The notes beneath the pieces were generated by a model. The model searched no databases. It had not been told where the DNA came from and worked only from the letters and a program-made list of their open reading frames with translations. From NCBI GenBank assembly GCA_029207755.1, contig JARCOQ010000012.1:21377740-21441739 (forward strand): a stretch of DNA of 64,000 bases. The letters are read 5' to 3'. Source of the stretch: Chamaea fasciata (lineage: Eukaryota > Chordata > Aves > Passeriformes > Sylviidae). The position numbers were made by a program, and so were the translations under genes. The first letter of the stretch is position 1, and every line of letters begins with the position of its first letter. Shown in pieces: positions 868-63,207 of this stretch.

Positions 868-1039
868 TATCTCTGATTCCCTTGGGGTCATCTCTTTGCC
901 CAAATGTTTCATTCCTGAGCTGCAAGTGTACCCCCAAAACCGGGGGTTCCATGAGTGCGACCTGAAGGCCCCGTTCGTGAGGAAGTTCTTCATTTGGAAT
1001 AACACCCACCTTCCTGGCTGCTACGGGCTTATTCCCCAG
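868..1039 (+). CDS. HYDIN: HYDIN exon m12, copy 1
   Basis: The acceptor is the pyrimidine-rich CTCTCAG ending at 867 and the donor is CAG/GTTTGG at 1040. The exon adds one base to the AG carried from m11, giving Ser, and ends in phase 0. It encodes an ASH-like N-terminal half with IPELQVYPQNRGFHECD and NNTHLPGCYGLIPQ. The corresponding mammalian stretch has the same LPG-Y turn. The upstream m11 for this copy is outside the window. Confidence 0.88.
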
Positions 1040-4000
1040 GTTTGGCATCGCATCCACCTCCTCCTCTGAAATATTATTGTGGAGATTATTAGGGGGGAAG
1101 AGGGTTTGGATAAGACCTTGCCGGTTCCTATTCAGTCTTAAAGATCTGCTGAGAACAGGATCCTACCTGAATGTTAGCTTTAGGATGCAGTTTAATCTCT
1201 TGAGGAAAGGGCTTACGTTCTAGTCTTCAGGGTGTTTTCTTGTGGGAGATCTTCGAGGGTTGTGAAAAGCTGCTGCATCCACAGACACCAGTGCTTGTGC
1301 TGGCAGCCTCCTTGCAGAACCCCCTGAGAATGCTAAGCCTACAATTCTTGGATCTTGTTTGTGCCTTTTACCTTTGTCCTGGGGATTTTTAAAAATGTGT
1401 GTAAGTTGCTGTTGGGATGGATGTTAAGGAGTTTGAAGTTTCTTCAGAGGTCCCTCTGAAGCTGGATTTGATTCTGTCCCTTCTAGGAACCCGAGGAGGA
1501 CTCTCCTGTGCTCTACTCCAGCCCCAGACCCTGTGGGATTCTCCAGCCTCGGAGCGCTGCAGAGATTCCAGTTACAGTTGAAATCCAAAGATTGGGCAAG
1601 CGTTGCACCAGTGTTTGTACCGGCGTGTTTGGGGATGCAAGAAACCCACTGGTGAGTGCAAGGGGAGGTGTGTGCCTTCGTGCAACTGGTCCTGGCAGGG
1701 TGCACAGTGTGCGGGGATTCTTCCGGGGAAAAGAGGCACAGGCTGCTGTGGAGAAGGACAGCAGGGGCAGGTGGCATAAACAGCTCGTGCCTTATAGGTG
1801 GCAATGTCAGTGTCTGACCCAGAAGGTAGTTCATCTAAGCTGGAATTGAGGATCATTTTAATTACTCTTTAAAATGCTCTTAACTTTGGAAACATCTTTT
1901 TTAAAATGTTACCTCTCAGCACAAAAGAGGATGTCAGAAGATTTCTGGGAACCTTGGGCTTTCTGTAAAAGAAAGGAAAGCTGGCATCTGAAGAGTAGTT
2001 GCAAGGATTTAAGCTTACATTAAAACATGGAAATGGTGATGCCAAATTCCCTGGATGGCACCAAACATCTGAACCTGGGCCATTGTGGCACTGCATGTAA
2101 ACCAGTCAACAGGGAGGACAGGCAGTGCAGGCTGTGCCAGGGAGCCTGAAGTTTGACTGAGCACTTGCTTTCAACTATCAGATTGCTTACCTAAAGAGAA
2201 GAGTTTCTCCCCACCCGAAGAACCAGTTGTTTAACTGTCAGCCTGATCTTAACTAGAGATTTCTTGCAAAGCTTCTACCTTTGGACCAATAATTTGTAGT
2301 TTGAAAGTTTCTCTTTACTTAATCCTTTTCAATTTGGAGGTGAATACATAAGCTTTATTTTTTTCCCCCCAAAATCCCAGGAATTCAGCTGGAGAATGGT
2401 AGCTGTCCCTAAAGAAATAACTTGAGCTGGGTTGAGCTGTTTAAGCTTTTTTAGGTTTCCCTGTTTGGGTTTGATTTTTTTTTTTTTTAAATCTTTCTTG
2501 CCTGCTTTCTGTAACAGAGAACAGAACTACAGAGCCTTGGACGGCTGTCAGCAGTCTACATAAGTCCAAGGCTGATAGAGTTCGGCAGGATGCCAGTGCT
2601 AAGGCCTAATTCACAAGCTTTTGGCCTCTTCAACGAAGGTCTCGTCGATTTAGACTTCAGGCTAGAGATTGTAAGTATCTGTGGGGCCGTTTTCCAGGGA
2701 AATTGACTGGTTGACATTACAAGCTGCCATGACGTGGTTTTTATATGTATCGGCCTGTGTGAGAGGAAGCAAGATATTCCAAGATTCCATCTGGGTGAGG
2801 CAAAAGGAACCTGGCTCTGGAGTGGTTTTAGCTGGGGCACTCCTCAGTGAAATCAGGTGCAGAGATGTTGGAGCAGAAATTCGTCTGGATTGTGTTGACG
2901 AGTTCTCCCATAATTTTATGGAAGGTCTTTAGCTGTGTGTGTCACGGTTTTTGAGCTCTGAGATCAAGAGAAACCTGTGGTCCTTTGCTCCTCGGAGAGC
3001 ATGGGTTTCCCTGTGCTTTCCCTGTGCCATCTACATTTGCTTTGTGCCAAACTGCTGTTCATGGTAGAGAAGAGGGTGTGAGGTCTGTCCTCAGACTGCT
3101 GGTGGGGAGGCAATTTTCACACCTGCTGTGGGTCAGGCCAGTTGGGCTGTCCACACAAAGACATGTGTGGGGGTTGTGCACCCCCCCAGCCTGTGGTCTC
3201 TGTGCCTTTGAAGAGCATCTTTGGGGACCGGCTGCAGAGAATGGCTGTTTAATATGTGAAGGCTGCATAGGGCAGAGGAGCTGGGGCTGCTCCCCTGGCA
3301 GGGAGAGCAGGGCTGCTGCAGCCAGGAAGGGCTTGTAGGCTGGGCCTGGGGCTGGGTGGGATGTCTGCTGGAGGGGGAGATCTCTGAGGGGCTTGAGGTC
3401 TGTTCTTCTCCATGCTGGGTGTGTTGAACTTGGAGCTGGTTAAAACCTGATCCTGTGGACTTGTTTGTGTCTGTGGATAAAGCATCAGGCCATGTGGGAA
3501 AGTCCAGCCACAGCCTCCTGAGCCAAGGAGGAGGGGCATGATTTTTCCTCTTGCTGCTTTTCCTGCAGTTTGGGGGATAAATGTAACCTTAAAGTGAGGG
3601 ATTTTTCCAGGACAGCTTTCTCGAACTACACAATGAAATTCTGCCTTCCACCTCTTCAGGGAGCAATGCACCTTGGCTGGGTGGGCCTGGTGTGTAAAGG
3701 ATGGGCTTCACGTGCTCGTTCCAGGGCTGGACCTGCAGAGCTGTGTCTGTACAGCTGTGCTGGTGCGGGGCCTTTCCTCCCTCCTTTGGGCAGCTTCCAG
3801 CTCTCTTGGCCAATCTGTGAAGCCCATGAGAAACCAGAGGACACGAGTTCTTAGGAAGAGTGGGCCATGCCCACTGAGCACATGTCATCCAGTTTTCCCT
3901 CTGCTTCCTTCTTTCCTGCTCTGCCATAACCATTTAGAGGTGACTTTTCCAAAGCAGAAGGCCCTGGGGCACCTCTCTACAGCGGATGATCAGTGGGAAG

Positions 4001-6675
4001 TGAGGGCCTCGGTCCTTTAGGGGACGTTGAAAAGCATTGATGGCCTCTTGGGAAAGGATAGTTTGGTGTTGGGGTTTTGCTCAACTGGTTTTGCGGAGAT
4101 ATTCTTCAGGCTCTCAGCAGTGTCCTCCAGCTGTGTGGTTTCTGGAGTGGGATTTGAGCCGTCATGACTTCCTCTGGCCCTGAGCCTTTGTGAGAAGCCA
4201 GGAGAGAGAAAGCAGCTTTCCTTGGCACACACTCCAGAGAAGGACTGGGGAAGGAACACTCTCCTGAGGATAAGCGTCCCTTGGGTTGGGCAAAACTGGG
4301 TTAATTAGGTGAGAGTCTGTTAAAGGAGGGGAAAATACAGGTTGTGTAAGCTCTGCTGTTCCCCAATACTGCAGCTTAAATTTAGGGAAATTAGGCCTTT
4401 AGGATTTTTATCCTCCCCTCTTTAGTCTTCTCCTTTTCTTACACCCCATAAGAGACCAGGGTGTATGGTTTCCATCCTAAATGCACATTATGCGTGTCTT
4501 ACAGGCTTGTAAACCTCACTGCTATGTTATTGAACCCAGGGAAGGAGTGATCCCCGCCAGGGGTGATGTTCATGTGACTGTCACAGCAACCCTGGATGAC
4601 ACTGGGGTTTTTGCTGATGCTCTCCAGCTGTTCATTGGGAACAGACTTTGGACCACCTCCACCCTCCTGGCTTTTGGCACTGGCACCACAATTGTCACAG
4701 ACAAACCATTTGCCCCGGAGCTCAACTTGGGATACCAATTCAGGTAGGAGATCTCCCACTCCCACCTCTCCTTCTGTCTCAACAAGGAGCAGTTTTGCTG
4801 TAGTCCTTCAGGCACGATCTTCTTCAGTGTTCAAAGACCCTGACTCCTTCCCTGAAGGCAGAGATACCTTTAGAGACATGTGATGGCCAGTTGAGCGTTG
4901 CTAGGTACCCTCAAAAACCACTGAAAGAGAAACCCGTTGCTCAATTGCCACTGAATTGCCTTCAGTTCTAACACATCTATGTCCTCACTTGGTCAAGTAA
5001 TGATCTCGCAGGCTCCCCCAGAACAAAAGGTTCCCAAAATGGCGCCTGGATGAGGCGGGCCCTCCGTGTGGCTGCGGGACCAAGGGAAGATGGCATCGCA
5101 CCCTTCCCTTCCAAAATGGCACCTGCCAGGCAAGCAGGGGCCCTGGGAACAAAGAGACGGGAGGGTGACAATCCCCCTGGGAAGGCAGGAGCCCGCAGAG
5201 CAGTTCCAGAGGCAGATGGAAACTTGCTGGTTTGTGTGGGGCCTGCAGTGCCGCTGCCAACGCTTCCTCACGCTGCTCGTGGGCTCTGCTGCTGCCCTGC
5301 CTGCCCAGGACTGATGCTTGTGCGGGAGGCCAGAATGTTAGGGTGCCCTCTCAGGTGCATCACCTCTGGGTTTGACCGGCAGCCTCAGGATGGCCTAAAA
5401 TATTAGCGAGGCAGCATGATCAGAGGTGTTTGAAAAGCAAAACTGTTTTAATTAAGGTGAAAATAAGAAGCCATGCAGAAAAAAAGAGAAAAAGCTGTGC
5501 CGAGTGCAAGGAGGACCTTTGCACTTGCTACAACACCCCAAAAATGCCCTGAGGATCTTCCTCTATTCTCTTAAGCATGTAACAATCCAGGCCGGATTCT
5601 TGGCATCCTGCCCAATAGAAATAGGAACAGGGCTTGAGGCACAGTCTCAAAGATCCAAGGGCTGCGTCCGTCCTGGCACAAGGCCAAAAAAGGTATCAAA
5701 ACCTCTGGTTTTTACCTCATGAGTGAAACAAAGAATGGAACCCAAATCCTTCCCTTAAATGGAAGCCTCCTTGCCACTGTGGGGCTGCAAACCCTACCAG
5801 GTGAGGTACACTTCTACACAGGACCTTGCTCATTTTTCCGTTGCCAGCAGAGTTTGCAAAGTTCACTTCAAAACAGTTTCTGATTGCGAAATGAAGTTTC
5901 TACAAATGACCACCAGTGCAAAACCAAAGCTTCTATGAACGAGAGAGCCCCTGCTCCCCTGGTTTCCTCTCCTAGAGCAGACAGATGATTTCTAGCAGCT
6001 TGCTGGGATTGTCCAGAAACTTCCTCCGCGCTGGCTTTTAAAAATGCCTGCAATCATACCCCCGCACACAAGGGCCTCAGGTGCAGGATCTCAAAGATTC
6101 AATAACAGTTTCGGGTGCAGATTAATGCAAAATACAGTAACAGTATGAATCACCCCAGAACACACATTTTGGAGGAAAACACCAGATCCTGTTAGCCTGG
6201 CCTGGAAAATGCTACATTACCATTAGAAACATATTCCTCCTTGCAATAACGACATCAGAAGGGCAGCTTATCAGACACTGTTCCCGGTCCACATTAAGAG
6301 CTGCAAATGAAGACGGTCTCCAAGCTATTAACAGCTCAGAATCCTCATTGGGAGCAATCTGATGACCAGGACAATAGCTTCTCCCATACTATTTTCCATT
6401 CTGGTTTCTCTTCTAGCCTCCTTCCCTGTGCTCATCAGTTCAGACTAACAGATGGGGGCCACCACTTCCATCAGCTCTTCTGGAAGGTGGAATGTAACAG
6501 GCCAGCTGGGAAGGAGGGCCAGAGCACCTCAGCCCACAGTAGCCCCAAGGCCAAACGTGATTCCCAGAGGCCCAAACGTACGGCCCCCGTGTTTGGGCTG
6601 GAGCCGCTGTCAATGGACCTGAAGCCAGGAGAGTCTGTGGACTTGGTGCTGCCAGGCTTCTCCCGCAAGGCGCAG
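868..6675 (+). CDS. HYDIN: HYDIN coding module, copy 1 (exons m12-m16)
   Basis: Five exons (868-1039, 1487-1651, 2518-2670, 4505-4743, 6417-6675) encode the last 330 or so residues of the 888-residue module. HYDIN is a giant protein, about 5,100 residues in mammals, of the C2 microtubule projection in motile cilia. Its loss causes hydrocephalus in mice and primary ciliary dyskinesia in humans (established). The products show the ASH pattern of a buried acidic/FG strand, then an Asn-rich strand, then a Pro-Gly turn, as in the m15 stretch around VIEPREGVIP. The DKPFAPELNLG motif in m15 matches mammalian HYDIN exactly as I recall it. Phases chain without a break: m12 enters with two bases carried over and m16 leaves in phase 0. 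m16 would next splice either to m1 of copy 2 in frame, or skip the intervening copies to d1, also in frame. No stop or frameshift is seen. Confidence 0.9.
1040..1486 (+). other. Intron m12-m13 (also 27743-28189, 54503-54949)
   Basis: This is a short intron of 447 bp in all three copies, and no embedded element was recognised. In copy 3 the substitution cluster of m12 spills into its first 40 bp (54531, 54540). Confidence 0.6.
1487..1651 (+). CDS. HYDIN: HYDIN exon m13, copy 1
   Basis: This is a 55-codon exon in phase 0 at both ends, with acceptor CCCTTCTAG and donor CTG/GTGAGT. It encodes VLYSSPRPCGILQPRSAAEI and then a hydrophobic strand, the second half of the ASH-like domain begun in m12. 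The Pro-Cys-Gly-Ile-Leu-Gln-Pro turn is typical of HYDIN repeats. Confidence 0.9.
1652..2517 (+). other. Intron m13-m14 (also 28355-29221, 55115-55983)
   Basis: It contains a poly-T run before the acceptor: 14 T in copy 1 (2475-2488), 16 T in copy 2, and TTTC plus 13 T in copy 3. Nothing else was recognised. Confidence 0.6.
2518..2670 (+). CDS. HYDIN: HYDIN exon m14, copy 1
   Basis: This is a 51-codon exon in phase 0 at both ends, with acceptor CTGTAACAG after a poly-T tract and donor ATT/GTAAGT. It encodes VYISPRLIEFGRMPVLRP, the start of a new ASH-like domain. Its EFG takes the place of DFG in mammalian HYDIN. It is not visible as an open frame with an ATG; the frame was chosen by homology and by phase with m13 and m15. 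Confidence 0.87.
2671..4504 (+). other. Intron m14-m15 (also 29375-31208, 56137-57968)
   Basis: This is about 1.83 kb of unique-looking sequence. Several frames of 60-140 codons exist on both strands, but none has recognisable motifs or splice support. No transposon was identified. Confidence 0.55.
4505..4743 (+). CDS. HYDIN: HYDIN exon m15, copy 1
   Basis: The acceptor is TGTCTTACAG and the donor is AG/GTAGGA. It enters in phase 0 and leaves with two bases. It encodes VIEPREGVIPARGDVHV, an ASH second half, and then GTGTTIVTDKPFAPELNLG, the best conserved stretch in the module. This copy has Phe in DKPFAP, as in human. Copies 2 and 3 have Leu. Confidence 0.93.
4744..6416 (+). other. Intron m15-m16 (also 31448-33119, 58208-59879)
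   Basis: A moderately CpG-rich stretch lies at about 5030-5290, and A/T-richer sequence follows. It might be an old LTR or other repeat, but I cannot place it. Copy 2 carries a tight substitution patch in this stretch (31853-31878). Confidence 0.5.
6417..6675 (+). CDS. HYDIN: HYDIN exon m16, copy 1
   Basis: The acceptor is TCTCTTCTAG and the donor is CAG/GTGAGG. One base completes a Ser codon from m15, and the exon ends in phase 0. It encodes FHQLFWK, a basic low-complexity linker (KAKRDSQRPKRT) and then a further ASH-like strand pair (VFGLEPLSMDLKPGESVDLV). The linker reads RPKR here and in copy 3, and RRKR in copy 2. This is the last exon before the duplication junction at 6770/6771. Confidence 0.9.
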
Positions 6676-8464
6676 GTGAGGTCCCCACCACGGGCTGAGC
6701 TGGGGAAGCATCAGATCCCCTCCCCTGGGCTCGTTCCACAGTCCCTTGACATTTGCCTGGGGAAATGAGCCTGTTTGGCTCCCTTTGTGCAGCTCACAGT
6801 CAAAGCTCAGGGGCTGAGTCGTCTACGCTTTCTGCTGGAATCACTATCATTAGTGGCACTGGCACGGCAGGAAATGTTCTGAAACAGCCCTGGAATCAGA
6901 TTGATGTAGCAGAAGCAGTAGGAGGCCTTTAGGTGCCACTTCAGGCTCCTGCTAAGATTCATCCAGCTCTGCTCAGATTTTCCAAAAGCAGCATGGTGCT
7001 CTGCTTTCCCTTTGGAGAACCACAGAACATCCAAAGCCATGTGCTCCTGTTTTGCAGTTTCCCAAGAGAGCTGAGAGGGAAAAAGTTGAAAAACGTCAGC
7101 AGTCGTGTTGGACTCTAAAGGGGAAAACTGAGACCATTTGAATTTCAGTCAGGGAAACATTTTCTTAAATGAGGCTTGTGCCAAGAGTGGGCTGGTGGGA
7201 AGAGACAGGAAGGACTCAAAATCATCTGGTTTAGACTTTTTGAGAGCATTTTGGTGCTCAGGGGTTGATATCTATGTGTTGAAAATGCATGTTTGCTGTG
7301 TCTGTGTATCCCAGAGAGCAGAACTTGGCCTGCTGGCTGCAAGCGGGAATGCCCAGCAGCCCAGCTTGCCTGCACAGGCAGCAAGAACCCCTGGAGAGCC
7401 AAGGTTGGCTTTTAATACTGAAACCACACTGTGAGTCAGTGCTGGTCATGTTTTGAAATATTCCCCCCGCAGGCCCGGCCCCCCTCCCCAGGGCTAGCTC
7501 TGGAGAGGCTTTGGAGGAATATCTCCGAAGGGACAGGACAAAAGATTTCAAAAGAGGCTCTTACCCCCAGATTATTCCAAGTCGTTTATTCCTCAAAGGG
7601 GTCCAGGGGCCGAAAGAGAGAGAACAAAGAAATCCAGGGGTCTTATCTAGTCTCCTATTTTGGGAGGGTCCTGGCATTCAGGCAATTAGGTGTGGACATG
7701 TAGGGAGGAAATTCCAGAAGGGTCAAAAGGCGAGAGACCATTCCCCTAAAGAATTGCAAGGTTTCTCCAGGAGGAAAATGCCTTTGAAGCCCACAGTCAA
7801 CAGGCACAACCTGTCTGTGTTTCCATCACTTTCGGGGAGGTGATTGCTGTAATCAGTTGATGATTCTTCCTTGCTGCTTTACTGGCGCTTTAAATTCTCT
7901 TTGTCATCTCCCTTTTTTAGGGATTGCTGTGTTCCTTCTTTTGCTTTTCAGGTTTGCTTTTGTTCCCAGTAAGGCCACAGTGTTTGGTCTCCTCTCTTGC
8001 TGCTCTGCCTGCATGACTGTATCCCCCAGAACTGCCCTATCCAAAGCTGACCTGCTAGAAAGGAATTTCTTCTTCCCCGCAGGAGAATGTGCTGTTATGC
8101 TTTCAGGTAGCCCATTCCCTCCGTGGAACACGACTGCATAGCTGTGTGCAGGCAGAAATCAGCAGGTTTTTGGCCCTGTTGAATATGCAGATGATTTGGT
8201 TCAGGTGCTCTTGTCTCCATCCTGCCGGTGCTGACCTGCTCGGCCCTTCCTTCCCACCAGGCACTGCCCTACTGCCCCTGGCCAAAATGCTGGAGCCAGA
8301 CAGAAGGGATTCAAGTTCACCCTTGGGAATTCTGTGCCTGTACCTCCACAGCAGAAAGGGCTTTGGAAAAGGGGTCAAGGAAGGACGTCACCAGGGCATG
8401 GACAGGTCTCCTCTTGTCCTGTTTCCTCAAGTGGCAAAATCATGGTTCCATGTCTTTCCTGCAG
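6676..8464 (+). other. Chimeric junction intron m16-m1 (also 33379-35167)
   Basis: The first 95 bp are the 5' end of the native m16-d1 intron. From 6771 on, the sequence is the 3' part of the intron that precedes m1 in the ancestral gene. The two halves were joined by the duplication. It keeps a good donor (GTGAGG) and acceptor (TTTCCTGCAG), so it can be spliced. It holds a minus-strand LTR candidate at about 7495-7835. Confidence 0.85.
7495..7835 (-). mobile_element. Endogenous retrovirus LTR candidate, minus strand, copy 2
   Basis: Read on the minus strand, it has a GATAAGACCCC-type U3/R stretch, a TTTGTTCTCTCTCTTTCGGCC segment and then an AATAAA signal followed by CGACTTGG. This is typical avian LTR architecture. 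No internal retroviral region is present, so it would be a solo LTR or fragment. The boundaries are not defined. Confidence 0.5.
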
Positions 8465-8599
8465 AATCTTCAGGGGGTGCAGGTCTCCATGGAGAGCTCA
8501 CCTTACTTCCAGCTGGCGGGCCCCAGTGATGCATGCCGTGCCGTGCCAGGAGGCGCCATTACCGATGTGCACGTCCACTTCACTCCTGACGAGAACAAG
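8465..8599 (+). CDS. HYDIN: HYDIN exon m1, copy 2
   Basis: This is a 45-codon exon in phase 0 at both ends, with acceptor TTTCCTGCAG and donor AAG/GTGAGA. It encodes VSMESSPYFQLAGP and FTPDENK, matching the ESSPYF and FTPEENK motifs I recall from the human N-terminal region. The preceding human exon has no counterpart in the unit, so the duplication begins in the intron just before this exon. Confidence 0.9.
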
Positions 8600-11500
8600 G
8601 TGAGACTGGAGGAGCCAAAACACAGAATTATCTCCAAAGCCATTGTTGTCCCTGCACTCTGGGTACAGCCCATGCTGTGAGCTTGGCTCCAGGCCGTGGG
8701 CAGGCAGCCTGCAGCCAGTCCCAGCTTGGCATGTGCTGTCAGGCCCTGCACCCAGGCCTGACAGGCCCTGCTTCCCCTCGCTGCACATTCCTCTGAGCAT
8801 TCCCAAGGGAAGAAAGATGCCCAGGGAACAGTAGGCAAACGGTAGAGGGGTGTTGATAGATGTCTGGCCATCTCTAGGTATAGTGGAAGGGGTTTCGTTA
8901 TTCTGCAAAGTACTAGAGGAACAAAGAGGTCAGAGAGCTTTCCGCCTTCCTGACGGGCAACAGCTTCCCTGCCTCACCCGGGGCTGGAGCAAGGACGGTG
9001 CTTTTTCACACCCTCTGTTCTCCAGCCTTGGGCTGTGCTGTCCCAGAGCACAGCTGACCATGATACGGCTGCAAGGCCAGGGCAGAGGATGTGCTGTGCC
9101 CGTGGGCCCAGCCTGGCACAGGCACACTGAGCTCTAGGTGCCCTTAGTCAGCAGGAGCTTGGTGAGCTGCAGGGGACTTGGACACCTGCCTGAAAGAGCT
9201 CGTGTAGGGCAGGTACAGCCTGCAGGCAGGCAGACCTGTGGGCCCAGAGCCGGTGGCAGCGACACTGCTGCGGCTCTGTCTTCATGCCTGTCACTGTGGC
9301 TGCTCTGTCAGCTGGCGCCCATTCCATGCCAATTGTGCTTTTGCGTGCAAGTTTGAACACCAGTGCCGAGGCCCTGGCAAGTCTGCTCTCAGCGCTGTGA
9401 TCTGGAGGCTCGTTCATACAGAGGGGTTTAGGACATGGCATGGAAGGGAGGAGGCCTTGCAGGGAAACAAAGAGAGGCTCTTTGCAACAGCATCCTGCTA
9501 CCTCTTAGCACTGTTCTTCTCGTGACTTGGTTGGAGAGGCAAAATTAGAGGGGAGTTCTGAGCAAACAGATATTTCTACACCAGGCCAGAGGTCCAGGAT
9601 CTCTTTGGGTGCAGCTGTTCTCTCAGTTTCCTTTTGCTGCTTAGATTCAGTTTAACACTTTGTCCTATTCTCAATCCGTGGGAATATAGTAACCTAAGGA
9701 GGAATGTCCTGTGTTCCCTAGCTCCATGTTCCTTAGAAGGGACTTAGGAATTATTTAACATCATTAAAATTGAGAGTAAAAATTATGGTGGCCCTGGGCA
9801 CTTGTCTGTATGACCCAAGTGACACAAGAGCTTAATGCCACTGAGATAGGTTTTGCAAAGTGCACTGCTGCCTTTAAAATGTGAGATATTAGTAGAACTT
9901 ATTGTTCATTTGGGGGTGGAATAGGTAAATTGATACCCTTGAAGGGATATAGGAAATGGCTTTTCTTCTGCCATGGAGATGGCACCAAATGACCTGTGCT
10001 GAGACAGTTTCTTTTCCTGCAGGTTTATTCCCATGAGCTCGTCTGCGTCAGTGGAGAGGAAAGGATAGTTGTGCCAATTCGGGCCATCCCTGCCCGAGCT
10101 ATCCTGGACTTCCCTGACGAGCTGGACTTCTCAAAGTGTCCGGTCAAGGGCAGCACCCGCAAGAGTCTGCTGATTCAGAATTGTGGTAGTGTGGCAGCTC
10201 ATTACCAGCTGGGCACCGAGAGGTGAGGCAGCTCATCTGTCCTTGTGCAAAACACCTTTGGGGGATAACAGAGTTGGGAAAGAACAACAAAAGGAACCAG
10301 AGCATGGGAGCTGCTGCCCTGCGTCGCCGGCTGGAAATGGGCAGGATGGATGGCATCTGCTCTTGCTTTCAGTGTTCTTAGCAGGATGCAGCCTTTGAGC
10401 TTTCTCTGCCCCAGATTTCCTGGGGGGTGCTGGAACATGTTAGTTGCTGGCTTGCGCCCTCCTGAGCACAAGCAGCTTCTGAAATGGGTACTCACCACTG
10501 TCAGCCAAACAGACCCATTCTCTGGGAGGACACAGGCACATGGCTTTCCAGTGGTGCCTGCATCAGATGCCCAACATGAGCTGTGTTGCAGGCAGCCGGT
10601 GCAGTTCCTGTTACTTAAAGCTGATCTGATTTCCCTTGTCAGCTGAGGGCATCAGTCCCCTCTTCTGTTCCACGATGAACCTTTGAAAGCCGGTTTAAAA
10701 TTTCAAACACGTGCTTTAAATCTCTGAATAAGGTCGTCCCCCCTTTCATTGAGATCTCATTTTACATATTCTGAAGTTCCTGTGTTTCTGCTGTTTTTTC
10801 ATTTTGGTTTGTGTTAAATGTTTGCCAAAAGATCATGAATTCTTCATTGGGAACTTTCATAAATGTCAAGCTCCTCCAAGGCCTATCAATACACCACATG
10901 CCCATAGGCATAGGCACAGGTGTATTAGAAACATGAGACATTTAGTGACTATGTGAAAAGCAATTGGGCTGATTTAGAAGATAAAAGTATAGAATAACTT
11001 TCTCTAGAGGGGACCTCTGGAAATTGTCCGAGCAAATACGCTGCTCAAAGCAAGACCAGTGTCCGGGGATTGCAAGGGGCCATTGGGAGATCTGGAGTTG
11101 TCTTTAGATGCCATACAAGGAAACAAACATACAAATGGACTAGTTAAAAAGCCGAAGAAGACCTATTAAAACCCCTCCATGACCTTATCTTTTCTGCCTG
11201 TCGGGTGCAGTAGTGATTCATTGAAAGGGTAGATCTAACAGGATGAGAACTATCTTAAGGAACAGCTGACAATTAACTCACTATATTGCTCTAATCAAGC
11301 CATAAAAGGCCAAAATTTATCCTGCCAGCCCCATCTCTTGGCAGTGGTTTTCATTTGGTTATTATAGCGTCAGGGATGTCTCCTTCACAGTCCTTCTTAT
11401 CTGTGGGCTCAGGGAACAGCTTAGTGATGTTGACTGAAATTCAGAGGAGTTAAGTTTAACTGTAGAGCTTGTGTCCTTGGGTCTTGGGGAGCCAGGTCTA

Positions 11501-53300: not shown

Positions 53301-56300
53301 TCCTGGGTCGTTTTCTAAAGGGACCAGGAATGATATCATTTATTGACCTGGTGCTTGAGGTGAAGCAAGTTTCCCAAGGGCCTCCTCGCCGTCTTCCTGC
53401 AAGAGGTGGAGTTGTGCTGGGTTGCAACCAGCCCGCGTTGGCTTGGGGCACACCAAGCAGTCTGCTGAGGGTCAGGGTCTGGTTCTGTTAACGAGGGCAC
53501 GTGACAGTGGGGAAGTGGCTCACAGCAAGAGAGGTGAGGGCAGGATCTTCAGAGGGGAAATCAGTCCTTGATGTGGCAGGTCAGCTCTATTTTTTCCCCT
53601 TCTCTCTGCTTCCTGTTTTGAGCTTTGATGTTCTCAGGCTTAAAGCAAAAGTTGTTCTTGCTCCAGCAGAATTCCATCCTGCTGTGCTGCTCTAGGTGTC
53701 AGTTTAATGACAAGAGGGATGCAGTTCCCTGGTGCTGTTCCCACTCCCAGGCAGAGCCATCTCGTCAGTGCCTGGGCTGCCATGTTTGAAAAGCAAGTGC
53801 AATTGGGGACAGTCAGTATTTGGACCTGTGGAGTGAAGGACCAGGGGAGTTGTAGGAACTGGGAGGGAGTGATCTCCCACTCTGTGGGGCAGGTGATGTC
53901 TCATGCCCTCCAAGGCTGGAGCAAACAGCTGAGTTCTCAGGCAGGGTAACAGCACCATGGGAGAGAAGGGAGTCCTTTTTACTGAGACACTAGAGTCGTG
54001 TGTTCCTGGAGCCTTACTGAGCACTGATCCCTGTTGGGAAGGCTCCCCCAGAGCTCATGGATCACTGGGACTGTTCCAGGAGTTCTTGCAAACCTTCTTG
54101 GGTGAAGGAGGGGCTGAGGCAGCTGTGGGACCAAGTGCTCTGCCTGGGGCACTTGGCAGCCTCTGGGTGCTGCCTCTCAGGTTTTGCCCCTCCTCGACAA
54201 GACATGTTTGAGTGGGAAGACTTTGAAGGCAATTTTTCACCGTAGGGCTGTTAAATGTGTATTTGACAGTGACAAAGGTGTTGTGCTCCATTTCACAATC
54301 TTTGGGGGTAAACGTTCTCCATTCTCTCAGTATCTCTGATTCCCTTGGGGTCATCTCTTTGCCCAGATGTTTCGTTCCTGAGCTGCAAGTGTACCCCCAA
54401 AACCGGGGGATCCATGAGTGCGACCTGAAGGCGCCGTTCGTGAGGAAGTTCTTCATTTGGAATAACACCCACCTTACTGGCTGCTACGGGCTTATTCCCC
54501 AGGTTTGGCATCGCATCCACCTCCTCCTCTCAAATATTACTGTGGAGATTATTAGGGGGGAAGAGGGTTTGGATAAGACCTTGCCGGTTTCTATTCAGTC
54601 TTAAAGATCTGCTGAGAACAGGATCCTACCTGAATGTTAGCTTTAGGATGCAGTTTAATCTCTTGAGGAAAGGGCTTACGTTCTAGTCTTCAGGGTGTTT
54701 TCTTGTGGGAGATCTTCGAGGGTTGTGAAAAGCTGCTGCATCCACAGACACCAGTGCTTGTGCTGGCAGCCTCCTTGCAGAACCCCCTGAGAATGCTAAG
54801 CCTACAATTCTTGGATCTTGTTTGTGCCTTTTACCTTTGTCCTGGGGATTTTTAAAAATGTGTGTAAGTTGCTGTTGGGATGGATGTTGAGGAGTTTAAA
54901 GTTTCTTCAGAGGTCCCTCTGAAGCTGGATTTGATTCTGTCCCTTCTAGGAACCCGAGGAGGACTCTCCTGTGCTCTACTCCAGCCCCAGACCCTGTGGG
55001 ATTCTCCAGCCTCGGAGCGCTGCAGAGATTCCAGTTACAGTTGAAATCCAAAGATTGGGCAAGCGTTGCACCAGTGTTTGTACCGGCGTGTTTGGGGATG
55101 CAAGAAACCCACTGGTGAGTGCAAGGGGAGGTGTGTGCCTTCGTGCAACTGGTCCTGGCAGGGTGCACAGTGTGCGGGGATTCTTCCGGGGAAAAGAGGC
55201 ACAGGCTGCTGTGGAGAAGGACAGCAGGGGCAGGTGGCATAAACAGCTCGTGCCTTATAGGTGGCAATGTCAGTGTCTGACCCAGAAGGTAGTTCATCTA
55301 AGCTGGAATTGAGGATCATTTTAATTACTCTTTAAAATGCTCTTAACTTTGGAAACATCTTTTTTAAAATGTTACCTCACAGCACAAAAGAGGATGTCAG
55401 AAGATTTCTGGGAACCTTGGGCTTTCTGTAAAAGAAAGGAAAGCTGGCATCTGAAGAGTAGTTGCAAGGATTTAAGCTTACATTAAAACATGGAAATGAT
55501 GATGCCAAATTCCCTGGATGGCACCAAACATCTGAACCTGGGCCATTGTGGCACTGCATGTAAACCAGTCAACAGGGAGGACAGGCAGTGCAGGCTGTGC
55601 CAGGGAGCCTGAAGTTTGACTGAGCACTTGCTTTCAACTATCAGATTGCTTACCTAAAGAGAAGAGTTTCTCCCCACCCGAAGAACCAGTTGTTTAACTG
55701 TCAGCCTGATCTTAACTAGAGATTTCTTGCAAAGCTTCTACCTTTGGACCAATAATTTGTAGTTTGAAAGTTTCTCTTTACTTAATCCTTTTCAATTTGG
55801 AGGTGAATACATAAGCTTTATTTTTTTCCCCCCAAAATCCCAGGAATTCAGCTGGAGAATGGTAGCTGTCCCTAAAGAAATAACTTGAGCTGGGTTGAGC
55901 TGTTTAAGCTTTTTTAGGTTTCCCTGTTCGGGTTTGATTTCTTTTTTTTTTTTTAAATCTTTCTTGCCTGCTTTCTGTAACAGAGAACAGAACTACAGAG
56001 CCTTGGACGGCTGTCAGCAGTCTACATAAGTCCAAGGCTGATAGAGTTCGGCAGGATCCCAGTGCTAAGGCCTAATTCACAAGCTTTTGGCCTCTTCAAC
56101 GAAGATCTCGTCGATTTAGACTTCAGGCTAGAGATTGTAAGTATCTGTGGGGCCGTTTTCCAGGGAAATTGACTGGTTGACATTACAAGCTGCCATGACG
56201 TGCTTTATATGCATCGGCCTGTGTGAGAGGAAGCAAGATACTCCAAGATTCCATCTGGGTGAGGCAAAAGGAACCTGGCTCTGGAGTGGTTTTAGCTGGG

Positions 56301-59300
56301 GCACTCCTCAGTGAAATCAGGTGCAGAGATGTTGGAGCAGAAATTCGTCTGGATCGTGTTGACGAGTTCTCCCATAATTTTATGGAAGGTCTTTAGCTGT
56401 GTGTGTCACGGTTTTTGAGCTCTGAGATCAAGAGAAACCTGTGGTCCTTTGCTCCTCGGAGAGCATGGGTTTCCCTGTGCTTTCCCTGTGCCATCTACAT
56501 TTGCTTTGTGCCAAACTGCTGTTCATGGTAGAGAAGAGGGTGTGAGGTCTGTCCTCAGACTGCTGGTGGGGAGGCAATTTTCACACCTGCTGTGGGTCAG
56601 GCCAGTTGGGCTGTCCACACAAAGACATGTGTGGGGGTTGTGCACCCCCCCAGCCTGTGGTCTCTGTGCCTTTGAAGAGCATCTTTGGGGACCGGCTGCA
56701 GAGAATGGCTGTTTAATATGTGAAGGCTGCATAGGGCAGAGGAGCTGGGGCTGCTCCCCTGGCAGGGAGAGCAGGGCTGCTGCAGCCAGGAAGGGCTTGT
56801 AGGCTGGGCCTGGGGCTGGGTGGGATGTCTGCTGGAGGGGGAGATCTCTGAGGGGCTTGAGGTCTGTTCTTCTCCATGCTGGGTGTGTTGAACTTGGAGC
56901 TGGTTAAAACCTGATCCTGTGGACTTGTTTGTGTCTGTGGATAAAGCATCAGGCCATGTGGGAAAGTCCAGCCACAGCCTCCTGAGCCAAGGAGGAGGGG
57001 CATGATTTTTCCTCTTGCTGCTTTTCCTGCAGTTTGGGGGATAAATGTAACCTTAAAGTGAGGGATTTTTCCAGGACAGCTTTCTCGAACTACACAATGA
57101 AATTCTGCCTTCCACCTCTTCAGGGAGCAATGCACCTTGGCTGGGTGGGCCTGGTGTGTAAAGGATGGGCTTCACGTGCTCGTTCCAGGGCTGGACCTGC
57201 AGAGCTGTGTCTGTACAGCTGTGCTGGTGCGGGGCCTTTCCTCCCTCCTTTGGGCAGCTTCCAGCTCTCTTGGCCAATCTGTGAAGCCCATGAGAAACCA
57301 GAGGACACGAGTTCTTAGGAAGAGTGGGCCATGCCCACTGAGCACATGTCATCCAGTTTTCCCTCTGCTTCCTGCTTTCCTGCTCTGCCATAACCATTTA
57401 GAGGTGACTTTTCCAAAGCAGAAGGCCCTGGGGCACCTCTCTACAGCGGATGATCAGTGGGAAGTGAGGGCCTCGGTCCTTTAGGGGACGTTGAAAAGCA
57501 TCGAGGGCCTCTTGGGAAAGGATAGTTTGGTGTTGGGGTTTTGCTCAACTGGTTTTGCGGAGATATTCTTCAGGCTCTCAGCAGTGTCCTCCAGCTGTGT
57601 GGTTTCTGGAGTGGGATTTGAGCCGTCATGACTTCCTCTGGCCCTGAGCCTTTGTGAGAAGCCAGGAGAGAGAAAGCAGCTTTCCTTGGCACACACTCCA
57701 GAGAAGGACTGGGGAAGGAACACTCTCCTGAGGATAAGCGTCCCTTGGGTTGGGCAAAACTGGGTTAATTAGGTGAGAGTCTGTTAAAGGAGGGGAAAGT
57801 ACAGGTTGTGTAAGCTCTGCTGTTCCCCAATACTGCAGCTTAAATTTAGGGAAATTAGGCCTTTAGGATTTTTATCCTCCCCTCTTTAGTCTTCTCCTTT
57901 TCTTACACCCCATAAGAGACCAGGGTGTATGGTTTCCATCCTAAATGCACATTATGCGTGTCTTACAGGCTTGTAAACCTCACTGCTATGTTATTGAACC
58001 CAGGGAAGGAGTGATCCCCGCCAGGGGTGATGTTCATGTGACTGTCACAGCAACCCTGGATGACACTGGGGTTTTTGCTGATGCTCTCCAGCTGTTCATT
58101 GGGAACAGACTTTGGACCACCTCCACCCTCCTGGCTTTTGGCACTGGCACCACAATTGTCACAGACAAACCACTTGCCCCGGAGCTCAACTTGGGATACC
58201 AATTCAGGTAGGAGATCTCCCACTCCCACCTCTCCTTCTGTCTCAACAAGGAGCAGTTTTGCTGTAGTCCTTCAGGCACGATCTTCTTCAGTGTTCAAAG
58301 ACCCTGACTCCTTCCCTGAAGGCAGAGATACCTTTAGAGACATGTGATGGCCAGTTGAGCGTTGCTAGGTACCCTCAAAAACCACTGAAAGAGAAACCAG
58401 TTGCTCAATTGCCACTGAATTGCCTTCAGTTCTAACACATCTATGTCCTCACTTGGTCAAGTAATGATCTCGCAGGCTCCCCCAGAACAAAAGGTTCCCA
58501 AAATGGCGCCTGGATGAGGCGGGCCCTCCGTGTGGCTGCGGGACCAAGGGAAGATGGCATCGCACCCTTCCCTTCCAAAATGGCACCTGCCAGGCAAGCA
58601 GGGGCCCTGGGAACAAAGAGACGGGAGGGTGACAATCCCCCTGGGAAGGCAGGAGCCCGCAGAGCAGTTCCAGAGGCAGATGGAAACTTGCTGGTTTGTG
58701 TGGGGCCTGCAGTGCCGCTGCCAACGCTTCCTCACGCTGCTCGTGGGCTCTGCTGCTGCCCTGCCTGCCCAGGACTGATGCTTGTGCGGGAGGCCAGAAT
58801 GTTAGGGTGCCCTCTCAGGTGCATCACCTCTGGGTTTGACCGGCAGCCTCAGGATGGCCTAAAATATTAGCGAGGCAGCATGATCAGAGGTGTTTGAAAA
58901 GCAAAACTGTTTTCATTAAGGTGAAAATAAGAAGCCATGCAGAAAAAAGAGAAAAAGCTGTGCCGAGTGCAAGGAGGACCTTTGCACTTGCTACAACACC
59001 CCAAAAATGCCCTGAGGATCTTCCTCTATTCTCTTAAGCATGTAACAATCCAGGCCGGATTCTTGGCATCCTGCCCAATAGAAATAGGAACAGGGCTTGA
59101 GGCACAGTCTCAAAGATCCAAGGGCTGCGTCCGTCCTGGCACAAGGCCAAAAAAGGTATCAAAACCTCTGGTTTTTACCTCATGAGTGAAACAAAGAATG
59201 GAACCCAAATCCTTCCCTTAAATGGAAGCCTCCTTGCCACTGTGGGGCTGCAAACCCTACCAGGTGAGGTACACTTCTACACAGGACCTTGCTCATTTTT

Positions 59301-62300
59301 CCGTTGCCAGCAGAGTTTGCAAAGTTCACTTCAAAACAGTTTCTGATTGCGAAATGAAGTTTCTACAAATGACCACCAGTGCAAAACCAAAGCTTCTACG
59401 AACGAGAGAGCCCCTGCTCCCCTGGTTTCCTCTCCTAGAGCAGACAGATGATTTCTAGCAGCTTGCTGGGATTGTCCAGAAACTTCCTCCGCGCTGGCTT
59501 TTAAAAATGCCTGCAATCATACCCCCGCACACAAGGGCCTCAGGTGCAGGATCTCAAAGATTCAATAACAGTTTCGGGTGCAGATTAATGCAAAATACAG
59601 TAACAGTATGAATCACCCCAGAACACACATTTTGGAGGAAAACACCAGATCCTGTTAGCCTGGCCTGGAAAATGCTACATTACCATTAGAAACATATTCC
59701 TCTTTGCAATAACGACATCAGAAGGGCAGCTTATCAGACACTGTTCCCAGTCCACATTAAGAGCTGCAAATGAAGACGGTCTCCAAGCTATTAACAGCTC
59801 AGAATCCTCATTGGGAGCAATCTGATGACCAGGACAATAGCTTCTCCCATACTATTTTCCATTCTGGTTTCTCTTCTAGCCTCCTTCCCTGTGCTCGTCA
59901 GTTCAGACTAACAGATGGGGGCCACCACTTCCATCAGCTCTTCTGGAAGGCGGAATGTAACAGGCCAGCTGGGAAGGAGGGCCAGAGCACCTCAGCCCAC
60001 AGTAGCCCCAAGGCCAAACGTGATTCCCAGAGGCCCAAACGTACGGCCCCCGTGTTTGGGCTGGAGCCGCTGTCAATGGACCTGAAGCCAGGAGAGTCTG
60101 TGGACTTGGTGCTGCCAGGCTTCTCCCGCAAGGCGCAGGTGAGGTCCCCACCACGGGCTGAGCTGGGGAAGCATCAGATCCCCTCCCCTGGGCTCGTTCC
60201 ACAGTCCCTTGACATTTGCCTGGGGAAATGAGCAGGGGCCTTCAAGAAACTGGTTTAAGACCACACGTTTCTGTGGCAGCACCACTTATTTTCCTTGCTG
60301 GTCACCATCAGACCAGCTACAGCTTTATTGTGATTCCACAGCCACCAAAACCTAGTGCTGATCCCGAAGTAAGGGTAGAAGGAAATACTGCTCTTTTGGG
60401 GCAGACAGCGTTGCATGCTTTGTCAGCAAAGAAGGGCAGAGAAATAAGTTAGTACCACTTAGACTAGGAGCCCAAAAAGAAAGTGAATTAAACAAGTGCC
60501 AAGTGGTTTTTCTGGGGTAAGCACAGAGTAAACCAAAAGCCATGTGAAGGGGGGGAGTTTATCACAAGTGCCTTTTGTGGTTATTGGGGTGCAGTGCTAC
60601 AGACAGTTGAGTGCAAAATAAATAAGCTGCATCACTGGAAGAAAAGCGGGCAGTGACCATAACTCTGTGGCAGGAATAGGGCGCGTGGTGGGTGGTGGGT
60701 GCTGAGCCAATGCTGGGCATTTGCTGGATGCCCTGCCACCACCCCCTGGTGACAAGTGACTCTTGCATGCAGGTGGTGCAGAATTACGCCATCTGCGAAG
60801 CTGTCATTGGGACAGGCGGCTCGATGAAGAAGATAACAGAAGCAACCATTACCTGCGAGTTTATTGATCCCACTATAAATTTATCAGCCAGACAATTCTC
60901 TTTCCAGGTGGAGAAGGTAAGTAAGTGTCTGGATTGCATCCTGGCATTGAACAGCATGGCTGAGGGCGGGGTGTGCTTGTGTAAAAGCCCCTCTTTACCC
61001 TTCCTGAGGCACTTTGTAAAGTGAGGGGAGATGCTTTTAGAGATGAGACTGGTATTTAACGTCCCCAAAGTAAAATTGCAATTACAGCTGCACTGCCAAG
61101 GAGGATCGTGGCCACCTCCAGAGAAATGCCAGTTTCTCTGCTCACAGTAAAGGGAGGTTTCTGAGGATCCTCCAGGGCACGGTGATGTCTGTACACCGAT
61201 GCTGTAGGAAAGCAGGGAAAAAATGGAGATTCCTGTGAATTCCTCAGGCTGACAAGGAAAAACCCAGCATCTCCTGTGTCTCTTTGCCTTCTCTGCTGTT
61301 GGCATGAATGCTGTATGGTATAGCTATATGGTATAGCTCTGTGCATTTCCCTAAGCCTCACCTGCTTCAAAGCACCCCCAGACACCCTGCAGCTGCAGTG
61401 ATGATAACACTGAGGCAGAGCAGGTGCCCTTTAATCTCGGGATCCCAAGTCCAGCATCATGCTTCCCTCTCCTGCAAGTTGTCTGAAAAAGAGAAGATGT
61501 TTCATTAGTTGGTTTCTGTAGTTTCAGGCCTCTCCTCTGGTTCCCAGGTTTCCACTCAAGTACAGAATCCCTGGAACAGGCAGTTCCGATGTAATTAGAA
61601 GCTTTTCAGCTCTCCCGGATTCTGCCTGGGTTCTGCTTGACGCCACACACACAAACTGATTTATTGCATGCTATGGCACCTATTTGATACCAGTACATGC
61701 AGAACTAGTTTCCCAAACTCCCTGGTTTCTCTAAACCATGCAGGAAGCCCAGCAGAATGCAGACAAGGAAGGAAGAGCCTAGGCTGATCATAGCTTTGAG
61801 ACCACAGACACCTTGTCCCTGTAGCAGGGACTGCAGGACGCATCCTGCAGACAAGCTGCTTTATGAGCCAATAAGGTTGTAAGAAATGGCTGTATGTGAG
61901 TGAAGATCATCTAGTGCTGCTCTGTGCAATAGAGAGACAAAACTGGAGACAAATGGTCTGGATTCCCTTTCTGGTGTAGATCTTGTTCAAGCAGCTGCCT
62001 CCTCTCAGGGCCCCATTTGCTCATCTGTACCTGGGAGTGTTTCCCTGTCCCCCAGAGGGTGCTGTGGTTTCTAAACATGAAAAGCATCTGCTGTAAAGAA
62101 AAATCTCCTGGAAGTGTAGAAACAAATAAAAAGGGTAAAAAGAAATGCGTGCACTTCTGGGACTGAAAACTGCGAGATGCAGCAGAAGCAGGTCTGTGGC
62201 TAGCTGAGGTTGGGTCTGTGGCTAGCTGAGGTTGTTTTTCCTTGTCTCCTGTTTGTGTAGAAACCCAGTGATGTCCTGACTCTGCAGTACCAGCCTTTGG

Positions 62301-63207
62301 CTATAAAGAACACCTGCCGGCTGCCACTCGACCTTATGCTCTACTTGGAGCAGCCGTTTCAGGTCTGCAGTGAGGACCAGCAGCCACTCCCACATGGCCA
62401 GGTGAGCAGCCCCGGACTCCTGCAGTGGGGTTTGAAGAGGAGGGATGCGGTGATGCACTTCTGTTGGGACGTCCTTAAGTCAAGAAGTTTAATCTGTAGC
62501 GTCAGCAGTGGGATGGCCTGAACTGCATCAGCAGAGCTGCTGAAGGAATCAAAAACTTATCTGAGTTGAGAAGATCCACCCTGGCTTTCAGGCACAGGGA
62601 GAAGGGAGCAGGCAACTAGGTCTGGGCAAGCCATGCCGTGAAGGTGTCTCCTGGAAAGCATCCCAGCTCTCCAGCAGCCACCCCTTGTATTGCTGCTGAG
62701 CACAGAAACGTGAGCCTGAGGGAATCCTGGACTCGAGTGTGGTGCCCGCAGTCAGACCCTTGCTGTAAAGAAATGAACGATGAACTGAGAAGCCCATGCT
62801 GGTGTCACACTTGGAGCATTTACTGGTTCATGCTGTCAGACCTTGGGATGTCATCCCACAGGTGACTAATTATTGTTCATCTGCTTGCAGCCTGTGACAG
62901 TGGACGTAGGGCAGACCTGTCACCTCTACATCGCATTTGACCCAGCTTATGGACTGGATTTTAATAGCTGGAAAACAATGAAGATCCTGAAGATAGAAAT
63001 GGTCAGGGGCCATCCTTATGTGGAGCGTATCACCCTTTGCGGGGAAGCCCACTTCCCAAATCTCCAAATCCAGCCCAGCACCCTGGAATTTGGCGGCATC
63101 GTGGCTGGCACGAAACAGGAGCGTTCTCTGGAGATGACCAACTGCAGCCCACTTCCCGTCAAGTACCACTGGTCATTCCAGATGGACGACCATGTGAAGA
63201 AGTTGAG
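35168..63207 (+). CDS. HYDIN: HYDIN coding module, copy 3 plus single-copy exons d1-d3
   Basis: Sixteen module exons (35168-60138) are followed by d1 (60773-60916), d2 (62261-62401) and d3 (62891-63207). Together they form an unbroken reading frame of 3,266 bp, open at both ends. The m16-d1-d2-d3 order is the native HYDIN order, so this copy holds the ancestral right-hand junction. Against copy 2 there are 13 amino-acid replacements and 3 silent changes: I to T in m3, D to N in m4, S to A in m5, S to P in m10, four in m12, M to I and G to D in m14, and H to R, V to A and R to P in m16. The gene continues to the right of the window, since d3 ends with two bases carried over. Confidence 0.9.
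36727..36926 (+). CDS. HYDIN: HYDIN exon m2, copy 3
   Basis: It differs from copy 2 by one silent change (CCT to CCA) in the Pro of DFPDEL. Confidence 0.95.
38459..38761 (+). repeat. (GGGAA)n array, about 60 units, copy 3
   Basis: It is the same array as in copy 2, longer by about 13 bp, with the same flanks. It is uninterrupted in both copies, as expected of a young or actively changing microsatellite. Assembled lengths may be inaccurate. Confidence 0.98.
40300..40421 (+). CDS. HYDIN: HYDIN exon m3, copy 3
   Basis: It has an Ile to Thr replacement (ATA to ACA) in the last full codon. The splice sites are unchanged. Confidence 0.92.
41724..41928 (+). CDS. HYDIN: HYDIN exon m4, copy 3
   Basis: It has an Asp to Asn replacement (GAC to AAC) in the acidic tail near the donor. 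It is otherwise identical to copy 2. Confidence 0.93.
42118..42738 (-). mobile_element. Old CR1 remnant, antisense, copy 3
   Basis: It is the counterpart of the remnant at 15400-16020, with the same decay. It carries an extra minus-strand change near 42414 (GPGRMD to GTGRMD in one frame). Confidence 0.75.
43641..43833 (+). CDS. HYDIN: HYDIN exon m5, copy 3
   Basis: It has a Ser to Ala replacement (TCC to GCC) in the linker (NRTSLL to NRTALL). The eight-T run is the same length as in copy 2, so the frame is kept. Confidence 0.9.
43857..44054 (+). repeat. TTC/TCC pyrimidine tract after m5 donor, copy 3
   Basis: It is the same tract as in copy 2, with about 24 bp (eight triplets) more in its right half. 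The reading of the flanks is unchanged. Confidence 0.95.
45103..45202 (+). CDS. HYDIN: HYDIN exon m6, copy 3
   Basis: It is identical to m6 of copy 2. It enters in phase 0 and leaves with one base. Confidence 0.92.
45927..46198 (-). mobile_element. CR1 LINE 3' end, antisense, copy 3
   Basis: It is the same insertion as in copy 2 at the same site, so it predates the duplication. It differs by isolated substitutions. Confidence 0.92.
46445..46563 (+). CDS. HYDIN: HYDIN exon m7, copy 3
   Basis: It is identical to m7 of copy 2, with the same CR1 3' fragment upstream. Confidence 0.92.
47743..47966 (+). CDS. HYDIN: HYDIN exon m8, copy 3
   Basis: It is identical to m8 of copy 2. The donor GA/GTAAGG is retained. 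Confidence 0.94.
49880..49947 (+). CDS. HYDIN: HYDIN exon m9, copy 3
   Basis: It is identical to the 68-bp m9 of copy 2 and encodes the GPTLHFDTDELDFGD strand. Confidence 0.92.
50138..50810. mobile_element. CpG-rich LTR candidate, copy 3
   Basis: It is the counterpart of 23378-24050, with the same left terminus and CpG-rich interior and isolated substitutions. Confidence 0.5.
52003..52211 (+). CDS. HYDIN: HYDIN exon m10, copy 3
   Basis: It has one Ser to Pro replacement (TCG to CCG) and one silent Arg change (AGG to CGG) relative to copy 2. Confidence 0.88.
53023..53123 (+). CDS. HYDIN: HYDIN exon m11, copy 3
   Basis: It is identical to m11 of copy 2. It leaves two bases (AG), which m12 completes. 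Confidence 0.95.
54331..54502 (+). CDS. HYDIN: HYDIN exon m12, copy 3
   Basis: This is the most divergent exon copy. It has Lys to Arg (54366), Ile to Val (54374), Phe to Ile (54410), a silent Ala change (54433) and Pro to Thr (54476). The last alters the LPGCY turn, which human HYDIN also has as LPG. The splice sites and frame are intact. Confidence 0.86.
54950..55114 (+). CDS. HYDIN: HYDIN exon m13, copy 3
   Basis: It is identical to m13 of copies 1 and 2, although it lies less than 500 bp from the divergent m12. Confidence 0.9.
55984..56136 (+). CDS. HYDIN: HYDIN exon m14, copy 3
   Basis: It has two replacements: Met to Ile (EFGRMP to EFGRIP) and Gly to Asp (FNEGLVD to FNEDLVD). The upstream T tract is interrupted by a C. 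Confidence 0.86.
57969..58207 (+). CDS. HYDIN: HYDIN exon m15, copy 3
   Basis: It is identical to copy 2, including the DKPLAP variant. Confidence 0.92.
59880..60138 (+). CDS. HYDIN: HYDIN exon m16, copy 3
   Basis: Relative to copy 2 it has His to Arg, Val to Ala (FWKVEC to FWKAEC) and Arg to Pro (RRKR to RPKR). It splices to the single-copy exon d1 in phase 0. Confidence 0.9.
60139..60772 (+). other. Intron m16-d1 (native, single copy from 60234)
   Basis: The first 95 bp are shared with the duplicated units and the rest is single copy. It gives the native sequence to the right of the duplication breakpoint. No element was recognised. Confidence 0.7.
60773..60916 (+). CDS. HYDIN: HYDIN exon d1, single copy
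   Basis: This is a 48-codon exon in phase 0 at both ends, with acceptor TTGCATGCAG and donor AAG/GTAAGT. It encodes QNYAICEAVIGTGGS and ITCEFIDPTINLSARQFSF, matching human VCHAIIGAQKGKS and ITCEFVAPLIQLSTKQLIY. It continues the ASH-like domain begun in m16 and shows that copy 3 holds the native right-hand junction. Confidence 0.92.
60917..62260 (+). other. Intron d1-d2
   Basis: This is 1.34 kb of single-copy sequence. It contains the 22-bp tandem duplication at 62191-62234. No transposon or RNA gene was recognised. Confidence 0.55.
62191..62234 (+). repeat. 22-bp direct tandem duplication
   Basis: The sequence GGTCTGTGGCTAGCTGAGGT plus TG occurs twice in a row, ending 26 bp before the d2 exon. 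It overlaps the likely branch-point region. Confidence 0.95.
62261..62401 (+). CDS. HYDIN: HYDIN exon d2, single copy
   Basis: This is a 47-codon exon in phase 0 at both ends, with acceptor TTTGTGTAG and donor CAG/GTGAGC. It encodes YQPLAIKNTCRLPLDLML, matching human YQPLAIKNISTLPVNLLL. A 22-bp tandem duplication lies just upstream of the acceptor pyrimidine tract. Confidence 0.94.
62402..62890 (+). other. Intron d2-d3
   Basis: This is 489 bp. Nothing was recognised beyond the splice signals. Confidence 0.55.
62891..63207 (+). CDS. HYDIN: HYDIN exon d3, single copy
   Basis: This 317-bp exon has acceptor CTGCTTGCAG and donor AG/GTATGT. It enters in phase 0 and leaves with two bases. It encodes CHLYIAFDPAYGLDFNSW, GEAHFPNLQIQPSTLEFGG and MTNCSPLPVKYHWSFQ. 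Human has RGEVHYPNLSFETKELDFG and TNCSPLVVKFRWFF. It spans the end of one ASH domain and the start of the next. The next exon is beyond the window. Confidence 0.94.

Follow-up and report, generated by a model that had tools for sequence, protein, structure and literature searches.

The question raised by this locus of Chamaea fasciata is whether a block of HYDIN-related exons has been multiplied in frame within a single gene, in which gene this has happened, and what the additional copies mean. An earlier note had claimed such an amplification of a 16-exon, 888-codon block inside HYDIN. The window, meaning the whole stretch of DNA that was analysed, is 64,000 bases long, contains no N and has a G+C content of 50.6%.

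Layout of the array and its exons

Comparison of the window with itself matched positions 1-33473 to 26704-60233 at 99.33% identity and positions 1-6770 to 53464-60233 at 99.28%. A self-match of 33.5 kb at more than 99% is not chance, and the claimed tandem array is borne out: about 2.25 head-to-tail units of approximately 26.7 kb lie inside the window, the last of them ending at 60233. The array continues past the left edge, and the figure of 2.25 units is a count within the window only. The units and their borders are as follows.

1..6770, + strand: unit A, the 3' portion of a unit truncated at the left edge of the window, with exons m12-m16
6771..33473, + strand: unit B, complete, with exons m1-m16
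33474..60233, + strand: unit C, complete and last in the array, with exons m1-m16
6676..6920, + strand: junction of A and B (breakpoint 6770/6771), the intron after m16 fused to the intron before m1
33379..33623, + strand: junction of B and C (breakpoint 33473/33474), the same fusion
60139..60383, + strand: end of the array (60233), where single-copy sequence begins, departing sharply from both junctions at the same point

The two junctions have 0 mismatches over the 245 bp compared. The array thus consists of direct repeats with one recurring breakpoint located in introns, the arrangement of an intragenic tandem exon amplification. No similarity was found between the sequence 3' of 60233 and the unit start, and the latter was taken from the units within the window. 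A perfect GGGAA microsatellite (11755-12042, 57.6 copies, in unit B; 38459-38762, 60.8 copies, in unit C) and a CT-rich array (17141-17312 in unit B; 43859-44054 in unit C) differ in length between the units and could serve as markers for counting them. No RNA family reached the gathering score in the window.

The frames were translated and matched to mouse HYDIN (PDB 9ijj, 5154 aa), and exons were placed by tblastn of named passerine proteins together with reading of the splice sites. The exons are listed below, the single-copy exons downstream of the array being called d1-d3.

Unit A, + strand: m12 904..1039 at the site homologous to that of unit C (AA, not AG), or starting at 868 with the upstream AG
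Unit A, + strand: m13 1487-1651, m14 2518-2670, m15 4505-4743, m16 6417-6675; GT-AG, stop-free
Unit B, + strand: m1 8465-8599, m2 10023-10222, m3 13582-13703, m4 15006-15210; GT-AG, stop-free
Unit B, + strand: m5 16923-17115, m6 18361-18460, m7 19704-19822, m8 21004-21227; GT-AG, stop-free
Unit B, + strand: m9 23120-23187, m10 25243-25451, m11 26263-26363; GT-AG, stop-free
Unit B, + strand: m12 27607..27742 at the site homologous to that of unit C (AA, not AG), or starting at 27571 with the upstream AG
Unit B, + strand: m13 28190-28354, m14 29222-29374, m15 31209-31447, m16 33120-33378; m13 and m14 GT-AG and open
Unit C, + strand: m1 35168-35302, m2 36727-36926, m3 40300-40421, m4 41724-41928; from reading of splice sites
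Unit C, + strand: m5 43641-43833, m6 45103-45202, m7 46445-46563, m8 47743-47966; from reading of splice sites
Unit C, + strand: m9 49880-49947, m10 52003-52211, m11 53023-53123, m12 54367-54502 (AG intact); from reading of splice sites
Unit C, + strand: m13 54950-55114, m14 55984-56136, m15 57969-58207, m16 59880-60138; from reading of splice sites, the exons of unit C totalling 2,628 bp
Single copy, + strand: d1 60773-60916, d2 62261-62401, d3 62891-63207; from tblastn and splice sites

A full unit has 16 exons on the + strand, and the introns before m1 and after m16 are of phase 0. The module exons seen number 5, 16 and 16 in units A, B and C and are followed by d1-d3, of which d3 was translated to 63205 only, with the donor GT at 63208. 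No stop codon occurs in any spliced module frame, as had been claimed for the 16-exon block with its phase-0 ends. The module of unit C matches mouse HYDIN residues 178-1058 with an E value of 3e-237, and the repeated block m1-m16 corresponds approximately to residues 175-1060, in the N-terminal part of HYDIN.

The units disagree at the acceptor of m12. It reads CCCAA in A (904) and B (27607) and CCCAG in C (54367), so that intact GT-AG borders cannot be ascribed to all module exons, as had been done before. All three units have a second AG 36 bp upstream; it is in frame and adds 12 residues. On these splice sites, m12 of A and B would be splicable solely via the upstream AG. The acceptor of the C type fits the joint KAR-CF in the proteins of two single-module models, P0002 and P0003, acceptor use in these being judged from their proteins and not from their DNA. 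A module has 2,628 bp (876 codons) with the acceptor of the C type and 2,664 bp (888 codons) with the upstream one. The length given earlier, like the start coordinate of 868, depended on assuming the upstream AG; it holds with that acceptor and fails with the other. With either length, repetition of the block preserves the reading frame, being of phase 0 at both ends and stop-free, although A and B need the upstream acceptor. The array is therefore probably splicable in frame, as judged from its splice sites and phases.

The symmetry of exon phase is not matched by the domains. Exon m1 begins within an Ig-like domain whose start lies in the exon before it; that exon joined to m1-m2 matched residues 1-96 of the 97 in the profile PF24771 with 25.8 bits, which is below the cut-off of 29.2. 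At the joint of m16 to m1 this match was lost and partial matches of at most 16 bits were found; the m16-d1 control had no Pfam match, and one side was judged. The module edges are thus predicted to cut Ig-like domains. Summation from gene models gives predicted lengths of 4,926 residues for a product with three modules (888, 888 and 876), the 61-residue start of P0002 and the tail of P0001, and of 3,150 residues with one module.

The HYDIN-like family and its protein models

A protein search with d3 gave 52 proteins at E <= 0.001 among 55 candidates. All 52 are named hydrocephalus-inducing proteins, from birds that we take to be passerines, and the best matches are from Chamaea fasciata (Sylvioidea). 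The Chamaea models lie on one record of 24,058,687 bases. The clusters of P0002 and P0003 have 12 and 9 member sequences, respectively, some of which may be isoforms. In a search with the suboscine P0049, 172 of 318 candidates passed 1e-20 and the best 120 of the 172 were used; the matches listed also included full-length HYDIN (about 5,110 residues) of birds outside the passerines and of other vertebrates. The exon order of the window is shared with the named passerine HYDIN-like proteins (tblastn), while its module sequence is identical to no named protein found.

A tree was made by a quick method with a midpoint root; it comprised 48 rows, two from the window and 46 from the 163 proteins, the latter selected to span the groups. 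The window rows join Chamaea P0001 and P0002 (SH-aLRT 100) and with them lie in an oscine clade (100) whose stem measures 0.48 changes per site; full-length HYDIN stands apart. Over unit C with d1-d3, identity is 99.0% to P0002, 98.6% to P0001, 93.9% to P0003 and 76.3% to P0006, whereas to full-length HYDIN it is 45.7-47.6% for nine non-passerine birds and 42.3% for quail. The exons d1-d3 agree with P0002 in 200 of 200 residues and with P0001 in 199 of 200. Eight passerine HYDIN-like models (P0001, P0002, P0003, P0012, P0024, P0042, P0049 and P0102) were aligned to stork HYDIN, and all eight stop aligning at residues 3821-3953 of 5121. The loss of the C-terminus is thus seen for the HYDIN-like family, the window itself ending after d3. 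Canonical HYDIN was rejected on the tree placement and on the absence of the C-terminal third from the family models checked. By these comparisons the gene belongs to a passerine HYDIN-like family that evolves fast and is without the HYDIN C-terminus. The earlier placement inside HYDIN is replaced by that in a HYDIN-like paralogue, and the fixed position of HYDIN in the ciliary central pair, which had been invoked for the product, therefore cannot simply be carried over.

Several other features of these models were observed. No passerine model longer than 4,305 aa was present among the 52 d3 matches or the best 120 of 172 P0049 matches. In the tree, Serinus P0101 (2,680 aa) fell to the side of full-length HYDIN, its long branch being flagged as unsure. 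P0001 and P0002 both skip stork HYDIN residues 2321-3005 and P0003 does not, which may reflect a deletion that the two have in common or a gap in the annotation of both. Short HYDIN-related owl models of 2,439-2,710 aa, from Strix uralensis and Bubo scandiacus, make up eight of the 120 proteins listed (P0146, P0148, P0149, P0150, P0157, P0160, P0161 and P0163). The two that were checked cover stork HYDIN 1-2788 and 1-2663, which suggests a separate expansion of an N-terminal half of HYDIN in owls.

A second array was found in P0001, a Chamaea fasciata hydrocephalus-inducing protein homolog of 3923 aa whose NCBI name begins with LOW QUALITY PROTEIN. Its order is m16, an incomplete module, a nearly full module, d1-d3 and the remainder, all joined in frame; a model that places m16 and two modules before d1 agrees with the claimed in-frame amplification of a HYDIN-derived block. 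Both modules start six residues inside m1, and the earlier one does not include m13, m14 and part of m5. The division of P0001 into modules was manual, with cut points that shifted slightly between the comparisons, and 726 residues of its earlier module were comparable. The last module differs from the window in 14 of 870 residues, and P0001 is therefore regarded as another allele or copy. The two arrays are alike in order, in their in-frame joins and in the way exon 12 of the last module differs from that of the earlier one, and unlike in these 14 residues and in the exon sequence missing from the earlier module of P0001. That module carries the insert ISDSLGVISLP ahead of KCF, while the last one reads KARCF. 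At positions 562, 796 and 842 and at the m12 acceptor, unit B pairs with the earlier module of P0001 and unit C with the last. Position 574 is the opposite, C pairing with the earlier module, and at positions 140 and 733 variants are common to both modules within each array. This pattern can be read as one ancestral array, from which both the window and P0001 would derive, with later conversion.

Long internal repeats were sought by shared 6-letter words in 163 proteins and were found in three: P0001, P0002 and the frog protein P0075. The last 70 residues or so of P0002 repeat its own N-terminal sequence, suggesting a gene model that runs into the next head-to-tail gene. P0075 (HYDIN of Anomaloglossus baeobatrachus) resembles the bird array in having a near-identical tandem repeat within one protein model, residues 3781-4762 repeating as 4766-5747 (982 residues, 98.4% identical). 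It differs in being a long HYDIN (5975 aa) with two copies of a C-terminal part, the second copy starting at stork HYDIN residue 3926. This repeat is independent of the bird array and could be real or an assembly error. A search for named proteins that contain d3 and have about 5,500-17,500 residues gave two candidates, neither of which scored.

Origin of the array and competing explanations

The exons of units B and C differ at 15 of 2,628 positions (0.57%) and the other sequence at 112 of 23,501 (0.48%), two low-complexity stretches being left out of the latter count (Fisher p 0.46). The exon changes comprise 12 replacement and 3 silent ones over 2,018 and 610 sites, respectively, which are small counts; there are 8 and 1 between A and C, and 2 and 0 between A and B. 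The module exons of A, B and C have no stop or frameshift, though few would be expected at such divergence. These comparisons give no sign of purifying selection after the separation of the units, although the counts are small and constraint may be blurred or hidden by conversion.

The explanation that we favour, with some reservation, is a recent intragenic amplification in a fast-evolving, birth-and-death HYDIN-like family, the gene being one of several such copies that the genome would carry. The array is read as copy-number turnover, and not as a longer cilium protein that has been selected, because the extra modules are without detectable constraint. An initial break would have fused the introns that follow m16 and precede m1, and more units may have been added by unequal crossing-over between the 26.7-kb repeats, with gene conversion mixing variants among them. 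A through-transcript would then be spliced exon by exon, in frame by virtue of phase 0, using the upstream acceptor for m12 of A and B. Such an origin suggests turnover of the family at two scales, that of whole genes and that of a 16-exon block within a gene.

It is important to compare this explanation with three others. The array could lie in a dying or dead copy, any transcripts being mis-spliced and the open frames reflecting recent duplication only. The exon 12 acceptor lost in two of three units, the neutral appearance of the changes, and the low-quality label of P0001 with m13, m14 and part of m5 missing from its earlier module would agree with this. However, the module exons seen have no stop or frameshift, unit B has open m13 and m14 with GT-AG borders, and d1-d3 are intact and identical to P0002 throughout; we consider a dead copy unlikely. 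Less likely still is expression of the array as an elongated HYDIN-like protein with at least three N-terminal modules, built into the axoneme (for example of the sperm tail) and lengthening the part that spans C1 and C2 in mouse. In mouse, HYDIN is the longest central apparatus protein; in sperm its ASH1-18 promote the C1-C2 connection, with ASH6-7 binding CFAP47 and ASH8 binding C2, and its ASH19-33 support C2 axially (PMC12297659). That the N-terminal half of mouse HYDIN drives this connection (PMC12297659) would favour a functional elongated protein, as would module exons that are all open and in frame, given one upstream acceptor, the in-frame joining of modules in the NCBI model P0001, and the presence of the array in two non-identical sequences. 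Against it, the exons have diverged like the introns, A and B are without one splice acceptor, an Ig-like domain is cut at the module edges, the family is without the C-terminus whose mouse counterpart runs along C2, and P0001 is a low-quality model that skips exons.

Misassembly of haplotypes or adjacent near-identical genes into a tandem array is very improbable. The region does belong to a near-identical multigene family, and gaps and unplaced pieces are described around the zebra finch copies (PMC4377847). However, there is no N in the 64 kb, 127 substitutions and 8 gaps separate units B and C once two low-complexity stretches are set aside, an identical intron-to-intron breakpoint occurs twice, and the non-identical P0001 has the same order and exon-12 difference, though its source may be this assembly or a sister one. 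On the differences between B and C, the repeated breakpoint and P0001, assembly noise was rejected as the only cause. A further conception has the slightest probability of all: a HYDIN-like protein with at least three tandem C1-C2-span segments, whose copy number would vary between individuals by unequal crossing-over, giving songbird sperm or cilia a central-apparatus arm of variable length.

Relation to known systems and significance

HYDIN-related duplicates of songbirds, HYDINL1-5, were reported by Wirthlin et al. 2014 (PMC4377847), who located the copies on one zebra finch chromosome, chr11. From the available text of that report, the gene in the window is of the kind called HYDINL (PMC4377847). 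Like it, HYDINL1-5 are partial passerine duplicates of the 5' part of HYDIN, considerably diverged from chicken HYDIN. Unlike it, they are separate partial loci, some possibly incomplete from assembly gaps, and the available text mentions no internal exon array (PMC4377847). Human HYDIN2 is likewise a partial internal duplication of HYDIN, comprising 79 internal exons, but the copy has moved to another chromosome and does not form an internal array (PMC5345166). The HYDIN homologues of nightingales are songbird copies in variable number; they differ in lying on the germline-restricted chromosome (GRC), and no internal array is described in the portion available (PMC10387091). A literature search, to which most subscription papers were outside reach, found no report of an internal in-frame HYDIN array. 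The HYDIN-like family and partial HYDIN duplicates are already known, and P0001 and the frog model are such structures already in public protein sets.

The gene structure is real and unusual, and the paralogue that has it turns over fast and shows no signs of constraint. If the N-terminal part of a HYDIN paralogue can be multiplied in frame, this would offer a natural test of whether the length of that part is fixed. Proteins of this kind, if made in the testis, would be candidates for a part in the evolution of songbird sperm. If they are not made, the locus is a clear case of exon-block copy-number change that automatic annotation renders as chimeric protein models.
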